The position numbers and the translations under genes are program-made. DNA of 62,927 nt, taken from NCBI GenBank assembly GCA_001799395.1, contig MGTJ01000028.1, forward strand, positions 1-62,927, written 5' to 3'. How positions within the stretch are numbered: position 1 is the first letter of the stretch; every line of letters begins with the position of its first letter. The DNA is from Desulfobacterales bacterium RIFOXYA12_FULL_46_15 (GTDB lineage: Bacteria; Desulfobacterota; Desulfobacteria; Desulfobacterales; Desulfobacteraceae). Below, piece after piece: positions 46,136 through 59,667 of this stretch. The notes beneath the pieces are model-generated. The model did not search any database, was not told the origin of the DNA, and saw only the letters and a program-made list of their open reading frames with translations.

Positions 46136-47227
46136 ATGGTTGAAAATGATTTAAAAAACTTAAGGGATCAGATTGATGATATTGATTCAAAAATATTAAA
46201 TTTGATTAATCAGCGACTTGAAATTGGAAAAAAGGTCGGACTGATCAAGAAAGAAACCGGTAGCCGGATACTTGACCGGACAAGGGAACGAAGCGTAATT
46301 GAAAAACTATCAAAAATAAATCAGGGCCCTGCAGATAAGCAATTATTAAAATATTTTTTTAATGTTATCATTAAAGCAACCCGCGACATTCAAAGACCAA
46401 AAACCATTTCTTACCTTGGCCCTGAAGCAAGTCATTCACATATTGCAGCATTGACCTATTTCAGGCATTCTGGGAAATTTGTGGAACAGCCCAATCTCTA
46501 TGAAATATTCAGAGAAGTGGAAAAAAATGAAAGTCATTTCGGCATTGTTCCCGTCGAAAATTCCATTGAAGGCGCCGTGACCCACACGCTGGATCTGTTC
46601 AGCAATTTTGATTTATATATCTGTGCGGAACACTATGAACCTGTCTCCCATGATTTATTATCCATAACCGGTGAACCGCAGGATGTTCAAAAAATCTGCT
46701 CACATCCGCAAGCGCTTGCCCAGTGCAGATCCTGGATTAAAAAAAAATTCGGCCATACTCAGATGATTGAAACCGGCAGTACTGCTAAAGCCGCTCTTCT
46801 CGCCAGTGAAGATAAAAATATAGCTGCCATTGCGAGCAAACAGGCAGCCCATATCTATGCACTTCAAACCGTAGAATCAAAAATAGAAGATCATTCAGGA
46901 AATATTACAAGATTCCTTGTTATCGGAAAAGAACTTCCTGAACCAAGCGGAAATGATAAGACCTCTATTATGTTTGCAACTTCCCATATTCCGGGGGCAT
47001 TGTTTAAAGCCATTGAGCCCATCGACAGAGCAGGGCTTAACATGTTGAAGCTTGAGTCAAGGCCTACTCACCATCAGAACTGGAGCTATTATTTTTTCCT
47101 GGATATAGAAGGTCATCAACAAGATCAACGATTAATCGAAACCATAAACGAAATAAAAAAATATTCCCTGTCGCTTAAGATTCTGGGCTCCTACCCTGTA
47201 TTTGAAAAAGAGGATTATGAAGCATGA
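46136..47227 (+). CDS. pheA: Chorismate mutase / prephenate dehydratase
   Basis: PheA (363 residues) makes phenylpyruvate from chorismate. The AroQ-type chorismate mutase is at about residues 1-85 (LRDQIDDIDSKILNLINQR), prephenate dehydratase at about 95-275 (TISYLGPEASHSHIAA, VPVENSIEGAVTHTLDLF), and a C-terminal ACT domain with ESRPTHHQNWSYYFFLD, the phenylalanine-sensing motif. It overlaps aroE by four bases and leads the aromatic block. No leader peptide precedes it. Confidence 0.95.
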   Translation: MVENDLKNLRDQIDDIDSKILNLINQRLEIGKKVGLIKKETGSRILDRTRERSVIEKLSKINQGPADKQLLKYFFNVIIKATRDIQRPKTISYLGPEASHSHIAALTYFRHSGKFVEQPNLYEIFREVEKNESHFGIVPVENSIEGAVTHTLDLFSNFDLYICAEHYEPVSHDLLSITGEPQDVQKICSHPQALAQCRSWIKKKFGHTQMIETGSTAKAALLASEDKNIAAIASKQAAHIYALQTVESKIEDHSGNITRFLVIGKELPEPSGNDKTSIMFATSHIPGALFKAIEPIDRAGLNMLKLESRPTHHQNWSYYFFLDIEGHQQDQRLIETINEIKKYSLSLKILGSYPVFEKEDYEA

Positions 47228-48042
47228 TCGACTCTTTTACACAACTTTACGGTGTTTTCGGCAATCCTGTCAGGCATTCAAAAAGCCCGCTTATTCACAA
47301 TTTTGCCTTTCAGTACCATAATATCAATGCCGTATATCTCGCTTTTGAGCCGGCCGGGGTTTCAAAATGCATTGATGCCGTCAGGACCTTAAATATCAAG
47401 GGCGCTTCCATAACCATACCGTTTAAGGAATCCCTGATGGAATATCTTGACTGGATGGATGAGGATGCTGCGGCCATAGGCGCTGTTAATACTATTGTTA
47501 ACAAAGAAGGAAGTCTTCTCGGATTCAACACTGATTACAAGGCTGCCGTGGAACCCTTGAAGCCTTTTGGCATCACCGGGAAACAAGTTTGTATTCTTGG
47601 AGCCGGGGGAGCGGCCCAGGCTGTGGCATATGGAATCAAGAAGGAAAAAGGACATCTTGTGATTTTAAACAGAAATAAAAAAAAAGGAGAAAATCTTGCT
47701 GAAAAATACAATGCAGATTTTTTCCCACTGGATGATAAGGAAAACATTTCTAAAATCCAACCGGATATCCTTATTAATACAACACCTGTCGGAATGCATC
47801 CGAATATTGCACATCTGTCCTTTCCTTTGGATTATCTGAATCCTGATACCATTGTAATGGATATAATTTATAACCCTTTGAAAACAAGACTTCTGAAAGA
47901 GGCTCAATCAAAAGGATGCAGGACCATTGACGGGCTTTCCATGTTTTTACATCAGGGGGCCCATCAATTCCGATTATGGACAGGAATCAGCCCTGACATT
48001 GATTTGATGAGAAACATTATCTTAAAGAATGGAGACTTGTAA
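47224..48042 (+). CDS. aroE: Shikimate dehydrogenase
   Basis: AroE (272 residues) reduces 3-dehydroshikimate with NADPH. Motifs: FGNPVRHSKSPLIHNFAF, catalytic Lys in SITIPFKESLMEYLD, VNTIVNKEG, NTD near residue 100, and the nucleotide site ILGAGGAAQAVAYG. Coupled to pheA upstream and directly adjoining aroA. Confidence 0.95.
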   Translation: MIDSFTQLYGVFGNPVRHSKSPLIHNFAFQYHNINAVYLAFEPAGVSKCIDAVRTLNIKGASITIPFKESLMEYLDWMDEDAAAIGAVNTIVNKEGSLLGFNTDYKAAVEPLKPFGITGKQVCILGAGGAAQAVAYGIKKEKGHLVILNRNKKKGENLAEKYNADFFPLDDKENISKIQPDILINTTPVGMHPNIAHLSFPLDYLNPDTIVMDIIYNPLKTRLLKEAQSKGCRTIDGLSMFLHQGAHQFRLWTGISPDIDLMRNIILKNGDL

Positions 48043-49299
48043 GTGAAAAAAATTATCCCTAAACAGATCCGGGACCAAAAGGTTGTCATCCCGGGTTCAA
48101 AAAGCATTTCTCACCGCATGCTCATCTGTGCCTCCCTTTGTCCGGGCATCACAATGATTGAAAATCTTCTTCAAAGTGAGGATATAACATGGACCATGAA
48201 TGCTTTGTCATGTTTTGGCGCCTATATTGAAAAGATAAAAGACGGGAATTTTCAGATCACAGGGTTTGAAGGAGCCCCGAAACCCTGTCAAAAAGAAATT
48301 TATCTCGGCAATTCAGGTACTTCCATGCGGCTTCTGACAGGAATTGCAGCCTTGGGAAATACTGAATATATCCTGACGGGTGATAAACGGATGTGCGAAC
48401 GACCTATGATTGAATTGCTTAATGCTCTGACACTGCTGGGCATTCTTGCAAAATCGGAAAGCCAAAAAGGAACACCGCCTGTCCATATATGCGGCGGTAA
48501 GCGACAGGGAGGGGGCGTCACTATTGACTGTTCAAAAAGCAGCCAGTATCTGTCATCTCTTCTGATGATAGGACCTTTTATGACGGATGGCCTTGAAATC
48601 AGCCTTGACGGCCCTGCGGTTTCATCTCCTTATATTGATTTAACACTGGATATCATGAAAAAATTTGGGGTAGAAGCCTGTCGTATTCATTCCACCCTGT
48701 ATAAGGTACCGGGTCAACAGGCCTATTGCCCGGGTCAATTCTTTGTTGAGCCCGATCTTTCCAATGCCGGTTATTTCTGGGCCATTGGTGCCATTACAGG
48801 AAAGATGATATCTGTAAAAAACATCAGTAAAAATTCTCTTCAAGGGGATTTGAAACAGGTCAAAATCTTAGAGCAGATGGGATGTACCATTAATATTGGA
48901 GAAAACGAGATTGGTGTCCGTGGCTCAGAACTTATCGGGATTGATGTTGATATGTCAGATACCCCGGATGCCGTCCCGGCCATTGCCGTTGTTGCAAGTT
49001 TTGCCAAAGGAAGGACCCGGATTAATAATATTAAGCACCTCCGGGAAAAAGAATGTGACAGGATTGATGCCATATCTTCCCAGCTCATGAAGATGGGAAT
49101 TACGGTCAGACAGGGGGATGATTTTCTGGAAATAACCGGAGGCCGGCCAATAGGAGCCCAAATTGAAACCTTTAATGATCACAGGATAGCAATGGCATTT
49201 TCCATTCCGGGACTTATGATACCGGGTGTTGAAATTGAAAATGAAACCTGTGTTGCAAAATCTTTCCCAAATTACTGGGAAATATTTGAAACCCTCTAA
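48043..49299 (+). CDS. aroA: 5-enolpyruvylshikimate-3-phosphate synthase
   Basis: AroA (418 residues) transfers enolpyruvyl from PEP to shikimate 3-phosphate. Motifs: PGSKSISHRMLICASL, LGNSGTSMRLLTGI, RINNIKHLREKECDRI and FNDHRIAMAF. The start is GTG immediately after the aroE stop. Confidence 0.95.
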   Translation: MKKIIPKQIRDQKVVIPGSKSISHRMLICASLCPGITMIENLLQSEDITWTMNALSCFGAYIEKIKDGNFQITGFEGAPKPCQKEIYLGNSGTSMRLLTGIAALGNTEYILTGDKRMCERPMIELLNALTLLGILAKSESQKGTPPVHICGGKRQGGGVTIDCSKSSQYLSSLLMIGPFMTDGLEISLDGPAVSSPYIDLTLDIMKKFGVEACRIHSTLYKVPGQQAYCPGQFFVEPDLSNAGYFWAIGAITGKMISVKNISKNSLQGDLKQVKILEQMGCTINIGENEIGVRGSELIGIDVDMSDTPDAVPAIAVVASFAKGRTRINNIKHLREKECDRIDAISSQLMKMGITVRQGDDFLEITGGRPIGAQIETFNDHRIAMAFSIPGLMIPGVEIENETCVAKSFPNYWEIFETL

Positions 49300-49302
49300 A
49301 TA

Positions 49303-49815
49303 ATGAAAATTTTTTTAATCGGATACAGGTGTACCGGAAAGACAACCATAGGTAAAATTCTTGCAGATCGTCTTAATCATAATTTTTTGGATATGGATCA
49401 AATGATTGAGCAACGGGCAGCATCGACAATTTCCAACATTGTCGATAGCTATGGCTGGGATTATTTCCGGCAGATGGAAAAAAAATTACTTTTCAATATT
49501 GTGACAAAGAACGATGTAGTGGTATCAACCGGCGGCGGTATTGTCATTGATCCTGAAAATTTGATCTTTTTAAATAAAAACGGATATGCCATATGGCTTG
49601 ATGCAGATATCCAAACCATCTTGTCAAGACTTAACTCAGATCCTTTAACCCATTCTTCGAGGCCTTCCCTGACACTTAAAAATCTGAAAGAAGAAACAAA
49701 AGAATTGCTGGAGATACGCAGGCCCTTATATAAAAAAGCCGCTCATTTTACGATTCAAACCGATTTTTATACCCCGCAGGAAATTGTAACCATCATTGAA
49801 AGGAGATTGCCCTGA
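49303..49815 (+). CDS. aroK: Shikimate kinase
   Basis: The 170-residue enzyme has the P-loop GYRCTGKTTIGK, shikimate-binding DMDQMIEQRA and FRQMEKKLL, and STGGGIV. It lies three bases after aroA and shares one base with aroC. Confidence 0.93.
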   Translation: MKIFLIGYRCTGKTTIGKILADRLNHNFLDMDQMIEQRAASTISNIVDSYGWDYFRQMEKKLLFNIVTKNDVVVSTGGGIVIDPENLIFLNKNGYAIWLDADIQTILSRLNSDPLTHSSRPSLTLKNLKEETKELLEIRRPLYKKAAHFTIQTDFYTPQEIVTIIERRLP

Positions 49816-50873
49816 TGTCAGGTTCCAGTTTTGGTAAGGCATTTAATATTACTACCTTTGGAGAATCTCATGGAAAGGGGATCGGTGTCGTTATTCAAGG
49901 CTGTCCCCCTATGCTTGATCTTGATGAAAAAATTATCCAAAAGGCACTTGACAGAAGAAGACCAGGGCAGGGCGGGGTGTCTAGTACGGCAAGAAAAGAA
50001 CCTGACAACCCTGTCATTGTTTCAGGCATATTCAAAGGCAAGACCACAGGAACGCCCATTATGATTTTGATTGAAAACAAAGATGCAAAATCAATGGCTT
50101 ATGATTCAATTGCTTCGGTTTTCCGGCCAGGCCACGGGGATTACACCTATCATGCAAAATACGGCATCCGGGATTACCGGGGAGGAGGAAGATCCTCGGC
50201 AAGAGAAACTGCAGCAAGGGTTGCAGCAGGAGCTGTAGCACAGGTCATTCTTGATCAGGAGGGTATCCGGATACAAAGCTATACCCTTGAACTTGGGAAT
50301 ATCAGGGCTGTCTTAACGGATGATTTATCCTGTAAGAACCAGAACTATCTTCAATGCCCGGACATGGCGGCTGCAAAAAAAATGGAGGAAAAAATAATAG
50401 AAATCAAAAAACAAGGAGACTCTCTTGGCGGGATTGTTGGGATTATTGCCTCTAATATCCCGGCAGGCCTTGGAGACCCAGTTTTTGATAAGCTGGATGC
50501 TGATATTGCAAAAGCATTGATGAGCATTGGAGCGGTCAAAGCCGTTGAAATCGGAGCAGGAATTGATGCCGCTAAAATGACCGGTTTTGAAAATAATGAT
50601 GAAATTTTCCCTGACGGTTTTAAAACAAACCATTCAGGGGGAATTCTTGCAGGGATCTCAAATGGGGAAGATATTATTGCAAGGGTTCATATCAAACCCA
50701 TCCCCTCTATATTGAAAAAGCAACAAACCATTGATGAAGACGGAAATAAAACTGAAATATCGACGGGTGGAAGACACGATATCTGTGCGATTCCAAGGAT
50801 CAACATGGTCTGTGAGGCCATGATGGCCATAACCCTCGCAGACCATGTATTGCGGCAGAAAACCGTAAGGTGA
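49815..50873 (+). CDS. aroC: Chorismate synthase
   Basis: AroC (352 residues) makes chorismate from EPSP with reduced FMN. Motifs: TTFGESHGKGIGVVIQGCPP, RRRPGQGG, RPGHGDYTYHAKYGIRDYRG and GRHDICAIPR. It ends the long plus-strand run at a convergent junction only five bases from the next gene's stop. Confidence 0.96.
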   Translation: MSGSSFGKAFNITTFGESHGKGIGVVIQGCPPMLDLDEKIIQKALDRRRPGQGGVSSTARKEPDNPVIVSGIFKGKTTGTPIMILIENKDAKSMAYDSIASVFRPGHGDYTYHAKYGIRDYRGGGRSSARETAARVAAGAVAQVILDQEGIRIQSYTLELGNIRAVLTDDLSCKNQNYLQCPDMAAAKKMEEKIIEIKKQGDSLGGIVGIIASNIPAGLGDPVFDKLDADIAKALMSIGAVKAVEIGAGIDAAKMTGFENNDEIFPDGFKTNHSGGILAGISNGEDIIARVHIKPIPSILKKQQTIDEDGNKTEISTGGRHDICAIPRINMVCEAMMAITLADHVLRQKTVR

Positions 50874-56785: not shown

Positions 56786-57961
56786 TCAGATCGTGCCGAT
56801 CCCGGTAAATATGTTGAGGCCGCCATGGAAAACGGGTTTCCAACGGAGCTTGAGCAAAGGGTTCGGCAGGGCTTCTTTTAAAGGAAGGATGAGCCCCAGA
56901 CGCCATCCCTTGAAATCAGACAGGAGTTTTTTTTCGATTTCCCGGTACAGGGTTTTTGCGCCGTTTTTTTCTTCAAGCCTTTTGCCATAAGGCGGGTTTA
57001 ACATGATGACCCCCTTTTTCCCAGGACATATAACGGCAGGGTCTATTGAAAAAAAATCTTTTTGGCAAAGGTCGATGGTTTGGCAGAAATCATGGTTTGC
57101 CATATTCTGCTGCATCACGGCAACGGCTTGATGATCAATGTCTGAAGCAAATATCTGTTTTTCAGACAGCTTGACCCGGTTCTCTTCAGCCTGTTTTTTC
57201 AAATGGGCAAAAGCTTTTGGACTGAAGCTGGGCCAGGATTCAAAGGCAAAGGACCGAAAAAGGCCGGGTGGTATCCCGGCCTTGATCATGGCGGCTTCAA
57301 GGGAAAAAGTGCCGGACCCGCACATGGGGTCTATAAGGATATCCGTTGTTGAAAACCCTGCCCGGAAAAGCATGGCAAAAGCCAGGTTTTCCCTTAAGGG
57401 GGCAGGTGTCACCTTTTCTTTGATGCCCCGTTTAAACAGAAGATCACCGGTGCTGTCAAGGGAGATATGAAATTCATCCCGGTCTGCCCGGATATACACT
57501 GTCTGGGCGGATGCCTTATCTGCTGTAAAGGCAGCCATGGATTCCATCTGGTTGAGGATGATTGCCTCGCATCGCTCTGCAATGGCATCGGAATGGTAAA
57601 GCCTTGATTTCCTGGCTGTGACGGAAAAATTAAGGGTGCAGTTTTCCGGCAGGAAAAGGGCAAAATCAATGGCCCTGATTTTTTTTTCAAGCTTTTCAAA
57701 AGAATCTGCCTTGAATCTGCCTATCCTGAAAAGTATCCGGGAAGGACTCCTTAGATTGAGATTCATGGCAGCACAATCTGAAATCCTGCCCTTGAATTCA
57801 ATGCCGCCGTCAATGAGCTTAAGATTATTCTGCGGGAACCTGGCCGTGAGCATTTCAGACCGGCAAACGGTTTCCAGGCCGGGTGAGCAGACAATGAAAA
57901 AATCATGCTCCCGGCCGCTGACCCTTCTTTTTATTCTTTTTTCAAATGCAGTCCGGTCCAT
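56786..57961 (-). CDS. Class I SAM-dependent RNA methyltransferase, RlmL/YpsC type
   Basis: The 391-residue enzyme has an N-terminal THUMP region (FIVCSPGLETVCRSEM, ARKSRLYHSDAIAERCEAII) and a Rossmann methyltransferase with DPMCGSGTFSLEAAMIKAGIPPG and the catalytic NPPYGKR. It matches the m2G-forming RlmL N-terminal half; the target is probably 23S rRNA. It directly follows the DAHP synthase gene. Confidence 0.9.
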   Translation of the reverse strand: MDRTAFEKRIKRRVSGREHDFFIVCSPGLETVCRSEMLTARFPQNNLKLIDGGIEFKGRISDCAAMNLNLRSPSRILFRIGRFKADSFEKLEKKIRAIDFALFLPENCTLNFSVTARKSRLYHSDAIAERCEAIILNQMESMAAFTADKASAQTVYIRADRDEFHISLDSTGDLLFKRGIKEKVTPAPLRENLAFAMLFRAGFSTTDILIDPMCGSGTFSLEAAMIKAGIPPGLFRSFAFESWPSFSPKAFAHLKKQAEENRVKLSEKQIFASDIDHQAVAVMQQNMANHDFCQTIDLCQKDFFSIDPAVICPGKKGVIMLNPPYGKRLEEKNGAKTLYREIEKKLLSDFKGWRLGLILPLKEALPNPLLKLRWKPVFHGGLNIFTGIGTI

Positions 57962-59002
57962 TTATAACCTTTTCATGGCGCAGCGGATCAGTTCCCGGGT
58001 GGTTTCAAAAGAAATGCATTCATCCGTGATGGATACTCCGTATTTCATATCTTTTAAATTGCCGTCACATTTCTGGCAGCCTTCAAACAGGTTGCTTTCC
58101 AGCATGAGGCCGATGATGCCGGTGTTTCCGTCCAGCCGCTGGTCCAGTGCACTTTTGAAGACAAAGGACTGTCCAGTGTGTTTTTTGCCTGAATTGTCAT
58201 GGGAACAGTCGATCATCACGGCATCCAGAAGGGTCTTCCGGTTCAGCTTTTCACGGGCTTTTCCGATGGAGACCGGATCATAATTGGGAGAGGGGCCGCC
58301 TCTCAGGACCAGATGGCCGAAAGGATTGCCTTTCGTGTGGACCACACAGGCCTGCCCGGCCGGGTCGATCCCCAGAAAGGTCTGGGGTGTGGCCGCTGCG
58401 GTGATGGCATTGATGGCGGAATCAAGGCTTCCGTCTGTACTGTTCTTGAATCCGACAGGCATGGAAAGGCCGCTGGCCAATTCCCGGTGGGTCTGGGATT
58501 CCGTCGTCCTGGCGCCGATGGCCACCCAGGTAAGAAGCCCGTCAATGTATTGGGGGGTGATGGGGTCTAAAAGCTCGGTTGCCGTGGGCAATCCCATGCG
58601 GTTGATATGGATGAGAAGGGATCTTGCCTGTCTCATCCCTTCATCCACATTATGGGATTCATCCAGAAAGGGATCATTGATAAGACCCTTCCACCCTACC
58701 GTAGTTCTGGGTTTTTCAAAATACACCCGCATGATCAGGTTGATCTTGTTTTTTACCTCTTCTCTCAAGGCGTTCAGCTTTTCGGCATATTCAAGGGCCG
58801 CATCAATGTCATGGATGGAGCATGGGCCTGCAATCACCAACAGGCGGGAATCTTTCTTCTGTAAAATGGCTTCAACATCTTTCCGGCCTTTGATCACGAT
58901 TCCGGCAACATCATCGGTGATGGGCAGTTCTTTTTTGATGGCAGCCGGTGAGATAAGGGGTTTAAAGGCTTTTACATTAAGATCATAGGTCGTCTGGTTC
59001 AT
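57962..59002 (-). CDS. 3-deoxy-7-phosphoheptulonate (DAHP) synthase, class I (AroF/G/H type)
   Basis: This 346-residue enzyme condenses PEP and erythrose 4-phosphate, the entry to aromatic amino acid synthesis. Motifs: LLVIAGPCSIHD, MRVYFEKPRTTVGWKG, AIGARTTESQTHRELASGLSMPVGFKN, DCSHDNSGK and the metal ligands within. It supplies the aroE-aroA-aroK-aroC-pheA block at 46-51 kb. It is preceded by a tyrosine-rich leader peptide and attenuator, which predicts control by tyrosine. AAGGAG precedes the ATG. Confidence 0.95.
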   Translation of the reverse strand: MNQTTYDLNVKAFKPLISPAAIKKELPITDDVAGIVIKGRKDVEAILQKKDSRLLVIAGPCSIHDIDAALEYAEKLNALREEVKNKINLIMRVYFEKPRTTVGWKGLINDPFLDESHNVDEGMRQARSLLIHINRMGLPTATELLDPITPQYIDGLLTWVAIGARTTESQTHRELASGLSMPVGFKNSTDGSLDSAINAITAAATPQTFLGIDPAGQACVVHTKGNPFGHLVLRGGPSPNYDPVSIGKAREKLNRKTLLDAVMIDCSHDNSGKKHTGQSFVFKSALDQRLDGNTGIIGLMLESNLFEGCQKCDGNLKDMKYGVSITDECISFETTRELIRCAMKRL

Positions 59003-59050: not shown

Positions 59051-59083
59051 AAAAGCCGCAGGCTTTTGCTGCCTGCGGCTTTT
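59051..59083 (-). terminator. Attenuator terminator before the DAHP synthase gene
   Basis: A perfect 13-bp stem (AAAAGCCGCAGGC / GCCTGCGGCTTTT) with a 7-base loop, followed by more T, lies between the leader peptide stop and the DAHP synthase start, 49 bases from its ATG. In this place it must act as a regulated, not final, terminator. Confidence 0.85.
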
Positions 59084-59098
59084 ATTGTTATTTTAACA

Positions 59099-59173
59099 TT
59101 AACGCCGGACAGGCAGACCTGTATAATAATATACTGAATAAGAATAATATCTGTCTGTCAAGCTGTGTTTCAT
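59099..59173 (-). CDS. Tyrosine-rich leader peptide of the DAHP synthase attenuator
   Basis: A 24-codon frame from ATG 59173 to TAA at 59099-59101 carries six TAT tyrosine codons in positions 9-17 (YYSYSVYYY), then TGLPVRR. AAGGA lies about eight bases upstream. A peptide of this size and composition, followed by a terminator and a biosynthetic gene, fits the classical amino-acid attenuation layout. The 11 bases GCCTGTCCGGC (59114-59104) within its end can pair with the terminator's 5' arm as an antiterminator. TTGACT at 59224-59219 is a possible -35 of its promoter. Confidence 0.85.
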   Translation of the reverse strand: MKHSLTDRYYSYSVYYYTGLPVRR

Positions 59174-59247
59174 TTGTTTTTTCCTTTTTTAAACACATAG
59201 ACCATAGATTTTCTTTCAAGTCAAGCCCTTTGATGGAGTTATAAATT

Positions 59248-59667
59248 TTACTCCTCAGGTTCTACCCTGCCTCTCAGGCTTTTCACCCGGCTGTGTTTTA
59301 TTTTTTCATCCAGTCGTTTTTCCCCTGCAGCTTTGGAAGGCCGGGTGGGTTTTCTTTTTTTGGGGGTGGCCATAGATTTTGAAATCAATGCCAGAAGACG
59401 GTTGACTGCATCCTCCCGGTTTTTTTCCTGGCTGCGGAACCGCTGGGCCTTGATAATGATGATGCCGTCCTTTGAAATTCTCCGGTCCTTCAGGGCCGAC
59501 AAGGTTTCTTTTATATGATCCGGCAGGCTTGAATGTTGAATATCAAACCTGAGATGAACGGCGCTGGATACTTTGTTGACGTTCTGTCCACCGGCGCCCT
59601 GGGCGCGGATGGCTTCAAAACGGATTTCATTTTCCGGGATGGCGATCTTTTCTGATATGAATAACAT
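59248..59667 (-). CDS. arfB: Alternative ribosome-rescue factor ArfB (YaeJ type)
   Basis: The 139-residue protein has the class I release-factor GGQ motif in AQGAGGQNVNKVSSAVHLRF and a basic C-terminal tail (KKRKPTRPSKAAGEKR, KSLRGR) that enters the empty mRNA channel of stalled ribosomes. It lacks a codon-recognition domain, as expected. GTG 59670 is one codon upstream; ATG 59667 has AGAGG before it. Confidence 0.92.
   Translation of the reverse strand: MLFISEKIAIPENEIRFEAIRAQGAGGQNVNKVSSAVHLRFDIQHSSLPDHIKETLSALKDRRISKDGIIIIKAQRFRSQEKNREDAVNRLLALISKSMATPKKRKPTRPSKAAGEKRLDEKIKHSRVKSLRGRVEPEE

Follow-up and report, generated by a model that had tools for sequence, protein, structure and literature searches.

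A short reading frame dense in tyrosine codons, followed by a hairpin and then by a gene for DAHP synthase (DAHPS), raises the question of whether this enzyme answers to the supply of tyrosine and, if so, by what device. The locus lies in a stretch of 62,927 nucleotides, hereafter the window, which comprises positions 1 to 62,927 of contig MGTJ01000028.1 of Desulfobacterales bacterium RIFOXYA12_FULL_46_15 (assembly GCA_001799395.1). A first-pass annotation, made from the letters of the sequence, had described here a leader of 24 codons with TAT in six of nine positions, a ribosome-binding site and a perfect 13-bp terminator directly before the DAHPS gene, and had taken them for a tyrosine attenuator. 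Each of these elements was found again, on the minus strand, which the annotation had left unstated. The features of the locus, in the order in which they would be transcribed, are:

59196..59224, minus strand: putative leader promoter, TTGACT (59224-59219) and TCTATG (59201-59196) separated by 17 nt
59181..59186, minus strand: plausible leader ribosome-binding site, AAGGAA, from the sequence
59099..59173, minus strand: leader peptide ORF of 24 codons plus stop, MKHSLTDRYYSYSVYYYTGLPVRR, from sequence and conservation
59150..59159, minus strand: RNA arm 1, partner of arm 2, from the fold and covariation
59123..59149, minus strand: control codons 9-17 with six TAT (Tyr), from the sequence
59104..59117, minus strand: RNA arm 2, partner of arm 1 or arm 3, from pairing and covariation analysis
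59069..59083, minus strand: RNA arm 3, partner of arm 2 (antiterminator) or arm 4, from pairing and covariation analysis
59051..59063, minus strand: RNA arm 4, forming with arm 3 the 13-bp intrinsic terminator, from pairing and covariation analysis
57962..59002, minus strand: AroFGH-type DAHP synthase (451 bits for TIGR00034, cut-off 173), the gene predicted to be controlled
56786..57961, minus strand: RlmL-like methyltransferase (205 bits, under the family cut-off of 466), its start abutting the DAHPS stop codon

A run of TAT codons could arise by chance in AT-rich intergenic DNA, and the region is indeed AT-rich. However, among the 3533 short ORFs of 8-60 codons on both strands of the window (a count that includes nested starts) this was the sole frame with at least 5 Tyr in 9 codons, none of 2000 dinucleotide shuffles of the upstream region (348 nt) produced such a Tyr-dense frame, and the leader is conserved across the order, as detailed below; we regard chance as a next to impossible explanation. 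The terminator stem (59051-59083) consists of 13 perfect pairs closed by a 7-base loop with T-rich sequence next on the minus strand, and the DAHPS start at 59002 lies 96 bases past the leader stop codon. Arm 1 is encoded by leader codons 5-8 and arm 2 by codons 19-24, while arms 3 and 4 make up the terminator. The fold of the 149-nt leader RNA lies 5.5 sd below those of its shuffled versions, with computed energies of -11.9 kcal/mol for arms 1:2, -20.5 kcal/mol for arms 2:3 together with a small inner helix, and -23.2 kcal/mol for arms 3:4; the 11 pairs of 2:3 would form an antiterminator that excludes the terminator. The putative promoter has a weak -10 and its site is absent from the consensus-scan list; TTGAC lies 47-60 nt ahead of the leader ATG in 21 of the 23 rows examined, that of the window among them, and a search for a promoter pattern across 395 loci found none. 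An Rfam scan of the whole window, T-box riboswitch included, returned 0 matches at the gathering cut-off, and the Rfam Phe_leader family (RF01859) scored 19.2 bits against the window leader, below its gathering cut-off of 55.

Taken together, these parts very probably constitute a trp/phe-type transcription attenuator that is mediated by the ribosome and has tyrosine codons as its control codons. From the parts and their ability to pair, which can be read directly, we infer that the ribosome stalls, that transcription terminates and that tyrosine is the signal. With an abundance of charged tRNA-Tyr, the ribosome would run on to the leader stop codon and cover arm 2, leaving arm 3 to pair with arm 4, and transcription would end before DAHPS. 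When tRNA-Tyr is uncharged, the ribosome would wait at codons 9-17, arm 2 would pair with arm 3, no terminator would form and DAHPS would be made. The E. coli pheL/pheA and trpL/trp attenuators are likewise built of a leader ORF, control codons, arms 1-4 and a terminator; layout and predicted mechanism are as in the window, and the amino acid sensed and the gene controlled differ. The methyltransferase is perhaps co-transcribed with DAHPS and, since it begins exactly where the DAHPS gene ends (57961-57962), this RNA-modifying enzyme may also fall under tyrosine control.

The AroFGH-type enzyme occurs in 75 of the 86 genomes of the family, including that of the window, and an aromatic leader precedes 72 of the 74 family loci whose upstream DNA was read (absent at L145 and L150); matches lacking the 5' end (G022, a piece of G042 and a piece of G079) were left unread. 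In the rest of the order, where 72 loci from 61 genomes were read, 54 of 61 main copies have the leader (absent at L159, L163, L164, L174, L201, L210 and L214), one of these 54, L219, being doubtful (Trp-rich, with no Tyr and no terminator). Over the whole order the leader is present at 126 of 135 main-copy loci and missing from 9, and it was seen at 0 of 11 second-copy loci. The criterion applied, 5 aromatic codons in 10, is reached by 8.3% of shuffled upstream regions; the stricter 7 in 10 is reached at 106 of 146 loci versus 0.24% of shuffles. A terminator accompanies 116 of the 126 leaders, the other 10 lacking one by the criterion used.

These observations bear on whether the main role of the leader lies in translation coupling or mRNA stability, with the hairpin being the ordinary terminator of arfB, a gene which ends at 59248 on the same strand, 74 bases upstream of the leader start. 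Against this, the hairpin comes after the leader and not after arfB, its arm 3 is complementary to arm 2 inside the leader, the aromatic codons are kept beside DAHPS genes only ~55-65% identical to that of the window, and the same kind of leader precedes aromatic-pathway genes at 33 of 38 loci described below. We therefore consider this explanation highly improbable.

Compensatory change in the RNA was evaluated in an alignment of 69 family leaders (A1), which was not fitted to the structure, although the structure had been read from one of its rows, and which left out L146 and L147 (long insertion) and L125 (duplicate). Of the pairs in helix 1:2, 6 changed on both sides, a number reached by 0 of 500 shuffles. 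No shuffle matched four of the five covariation measures for this helix; the remaining one, which counts further pair types, was reached by 79 of the 500. For arms 3:4, 6 pairs again changed on both sides (0/500 shuffles as high), with one slid control (+3) scoring higher in cells changed on both sides, 10 vs 7. Arms 2:3 were paired in 86.9% and mostly invariant, and no covariation signal was seen for them in the 69 leaders (1 pair changed on both sides; 186/500 shuffles as high), which is to be expected, although it is not proof, because the arm 2/3 strand must pair twice. In a complementary model the ribosome footprint, held fixed and with kinetics ignored, was masked at each codon. Capture of arm 3 by upstream RNA averaged 0.65 with the ribosome at the first three aromatic codons versus 0.27 near the stop; of the 116 leaders, 109 had higher values at the first three aromatic codons than at the last codons, the remaining 7 showing the opposite direction. 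For the window leader the values were 0.73 and 0.24, arm 3 being captured for ribosome positions up to roughly codon 19 and set free close to the stop codon. The same model lets the 2:3 pairing of the window RNA win even with no ribosome present (0.73), so that an untranslated transcript, unlike in the classic case, need not terminate. As judged from sequence comparison, the attenuator reading of the first-pass annotation is thus well supported by anatomy, conservation and covariation in two of three helices.

The first-pass annotation had further proposed that the device would switch off the first step of the pathway when tyrosyl-tRNA is plentiful. This is too broad, since two more DAHPS genes with leaders of their own are present in the genome, and the window device appears to be one of three, one for each DAHPS isozyme found in the genome. 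A TIGR01361-type DAHPS precedes aroB (TIGR01357) on contig C140, behind an upstream ORF ending in ...LPLWRWWRKPPVSSA (a Trp leader) and then a terminator. A DAHPS-prephenate dehydratase (PDT) fusion, apparently split across contigs C9 and C81 and verified on an intact relative (L275), follows an upstream ORF reading MNKSTHTGIFNFGRFFFRSVHPV (a Phe leader), also with a terminator. Of the 46 fusion loci with sufficient sequence upstream, 40 carry the Phe-leader motif, the six misses including G078 and G079, whose leaders fall slightly off the search pattern. Four Phe in 8 codons occur at 45 of the 46 loci and also in 267 of 1380 shuffles; this criterion is weak alone, and the conserved peptide is the better evidence for the fusion leader. 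Three Trp in 8 codons were found at 34 of 69 AroFB loci (22/49 in the family, 12/20 outside) versus 14 of 2070 shuffles; all 11 Desulfotignum-genus loci and all 7 loci read from genus g3 fell below this mark, and the nearest relatives of the window organism (G033, G034 and G046) have only 1 or 2 Trp in the AroFB leader. The three upstream regions were all read in 31 family genomes, of which 16 have the full set of leaders, a count for which the Trp criterion was relaxed to 2 in 8.

Other genes of the pathway in this genome were also inspected. A trpE gene (TIGR00564, 505.5 bits, just under the cut-off of 517.7) on contig C207 of G000 (L234, ~515-611) stands behind a Trp leader, MKNLNSNHKGRFNWWWQCWIWCLLPQGMGLR, containing NWWWQCWIW and followed by terminator-like hairpins. 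No aromatic leader with a terminator was seen in the region upstream of tyrA (L236). Separately, many of the AroFB Trp leaders (L237-L262) begin with MFLYIETN or similar, a start that is conserved though far from the Trp codons. The window also carries a run of pheA (CM-PDT), aroE, aroA, shikimate kinase and aroC at 46136-50873, downstream of lpxA and lpxB, and this CM-PDT is a second PDT besides the fusion.

The question of which amino acid is sensed was addressed through the codons of the relatives. The tyrosine codons, on whose conservation the first-pass annotation had made its reading depend, are kept: the 10 most aromatic codons hold at least 2 Tyr in 125 of 126 leaders, together with at least 1 Phe in 118 and at least 1 Trp in 48. 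The commonest family leader resembles MNFCLTDRFYFYFRYYFYTGLPVLR, a mixture of Phe and Tyr, and in the 42 family leaders that are 25 codons long the constant residue is Tyr, at codon 12 in 41 and at codon 10 in 37, with Phe at codon 11 in 36. The name of tyrosine leader accordingly fits the codons of the window leader and not those of most relatives. Tyr-only leaders number 8 of 126: that of the window, L087 and L151 from the same genus and of the same leader type, four of the Desulfotignum type (L124, L125, L129 and L131), and L169. At L082, the locus whose full-length DAHPS is closest to that of the window, the control codons of the leader still include a single Phe. In a DAHPS tree of 37 of the 38 rows given (L087, a partial gene, was dropped), the window clade and Desulfotignum occupy separate positions, each surrounded by mixed leaders, and for this reason Phe was probably lost at least twice; because the leaders of relatives are mostly mixed, the Tyr-only form appears to be the derived state.

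This pattern could also mean that the leader senses general aromatic supply (Phe and Tyr, sometimes Trp) and that the Tyr-only form in the window is drift with the signal unchanged. The 118 leaders with Phe and the 48 with Trp are in keeping with such a sensor, as are the mixed leaders carried by the outgroups and most of the sister group on the tree; moreover, the isozyme with the Phe leader is also present in many mixed-leader genomes, so that it does not explain the loss of Phe. On the other hand, a leader with neither Phe nor Trp codons, such as that of the window, cannot sense these amino acids by attenuation, and two lineages lost Phe yet kept Tyr, and we hold a general sensor to be rather unlikely. 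Tyrosine-specific attenuation in the window species, which we prefer, is supported by the leader codons themselves. Two simple rules for codon loss were considered and rejected. That Phe codons were lost since the isozyme with the Phe leader took over is unsupported, as many mixed leaders coexist with the Phe-leader fusion; no DAHPS-PDT fusion was found in G070 and G073, two of the four Desulfotignum-type Tyr-only genomes. That the Trp codon was lost where AroFB is present is equally unsupported, with a Trp codon in 20 of 54 leaders with an AroFB match versus 5 of 18 without, the latter figure being approximate since the list of genomes without AroFB was compiled by hand.

In order to follow the leader independently of the enzyme, a covariance model (R1) free of gene sequence was built from the 69 leaders and searched in 394 genomes of the phylum, each at least 90% complete. 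Matches at E 0.01 or better were obtained in 129 of the 394 genomes, the weak ones among them being unproven and some overlapping a match on the opposite strand. In the genome of the window R1 also picked up the Phe leader of the fusion. We read 38 of the best-scoring loci, a non-random set excluding the window, of which 9 came from the main R1 search and 29 through 31 genomes chosen for low E-values; an aromatic-pathway enzyme comes next at 33 of the 38, in other families of the phylum as well, one of the 33 (L359) being a training member. Seven query proteins were used, those for shikimate kinase, acyl-CoA synthetase, aminotransferase, ADH synthase and dehydroquinate synthase II being taken from the same loci. 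The best same-strand match was ADH synthase with dehydroquinate synthase II at 15 loci and ADH synthase alone at 1, AroFB-type DAHPS at 7, AroFGH DAHPS at 6, shikimate kinase at 4, ADP-forming acyl-CoA synthetase at 2 and an aminotransferase at 1, with none of the queries matching at 2; ten proteins from nine R1 loci were named by NCBIfam. The ADH synthase behind the leader is archaeal-type and non-homologous to DAHPS. Twelve genomes of the order in which it follows the leader (G115, G116, G120, G138, G149, G180, G184, G185, G195, G214, G227 and G241) are absent from the 112-genome list of AroFGH DAHPS (E 1e-60), which suggests that the leader precedes the first committed step even though another enzyme performs it.

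On these grounds we find it reasonably probable that Desulfobacterales divide entry into the aromatic pathway among three DAHPS isozymes, each with its own leader attenuator (Tyr or Tyr plus Phe, Phe, and Trp), as a protein-free counterpart of E. coli TyrR and TrpR, and that the leader of the Tyr type represents an ancient RNA element which kept its job while its enzyme was exchanged for non-homologous ones (AroFGH DAHPS, AroFB-type DAHPS and archaeal-type ADH synthase) and whose codons can be retuned from Phe plus Tyr to Tyr alone. If the leaders act as their codons suggest, the first step of a branched pathway would be split among three isozymes with no regulatory protein. E. coli too has three isozymes over three end products, AroF, AroG and AroH for Tyr, Phe and Trp, with control by allostery, TyrR and TrpR according to sections of PMC11878033, whereas in the genome of the window three leader peptides would take this part.

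A 2004 survey by Vitreschak and colleagues is said to list branched-chain, His, Thr, Trp and Phe attenuators and no Tyr one, and the AroR leader of Corynebacterium glutamicum is reportedly the work of Neshat et al. 2014. AroR (Phe-Tyr-Phe) precedes aroF as an attenuator, and portions of PMC11802643 and PMC4046766 state that the operon answers Phe and not Tyr. Like the window leader, AroR is a leader-peptide attenuator with aromatic codons before DAHP synthase; it differs in its phylum, its three control residues and its Phe response, as against six Tyr and no Phe. The uORFC-13-1 motif before aroF of Acholeplasma and environmental sequences, as described in part of PMC8632094, likewise combines an upstream ORF and a terminator before DAHP synthase, and is set apart by its description as a U run coding at least one Phe; the same text mentions that attenuation of E. 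coli aroF had been hypothesised earlier. In the main text of a survey of premature terminators (PMC2965389) the terms desulf, aroF, DAHP and tyrosine do not occur. The remark of the first-pass annotation that a Tyr leader on a DAHPS is uncommon is therefore fair, though AroR and uORFC-13-1 are precedents. While the mechanism proposed here is of a known kind (trp/phe-type attenuation), we found no description of leader control by Tyr alone or of the three-leader set over the isozymes in the open literature, most subscription papers lying outside this scope, so that an earlier report is possible. The many aromatic codons in the leaders fit the theory, as set out in part of PMC1183508, that attenuation becomes more sensitive when the fraction of control codons is high. 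The natural changes from Phe plus Tyr to Tyr offer a ready set for how leader codons set specificity, and bear on why AroR is said, in the portions cited above, to ignore Tyr. Furthermore, a leader model with no Rfam match in the window leads to genes of the aromatic pathway in further families of the phylum.

Outside the phylum, a DAHPS leader with YRYFYFYFYY and a terminator lies within 260 bases of the gene start in Latescibacterota (L026). Chlorobiaceae DAHPS genes (L022-L024 and L029) were considered for leaders of this kind; aromatic ORFs exist there, with no terminator seen between ORF and gene, and the idea was dropped. At two R1 matches with an aromatic leader ORF (L376 and L395) no recognised aromatic-pathway gene lies downstream; the protein after L376 weakly matches metallo-beta-lactamase-fold proteins (74 bits against a cut-off of 240). 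Shikimate kinase stands behind an aromatic leader at L373, L378, L385 and L390, in other families of the phylum. Finally, L371 has a leader with eight consecutive Tyr, and L370 a similar one (both at ~1507-1593, match strand), before an ADP-forming acyl-CoA synthetase that perhaps acts in the salvage of aromatic amino acids.
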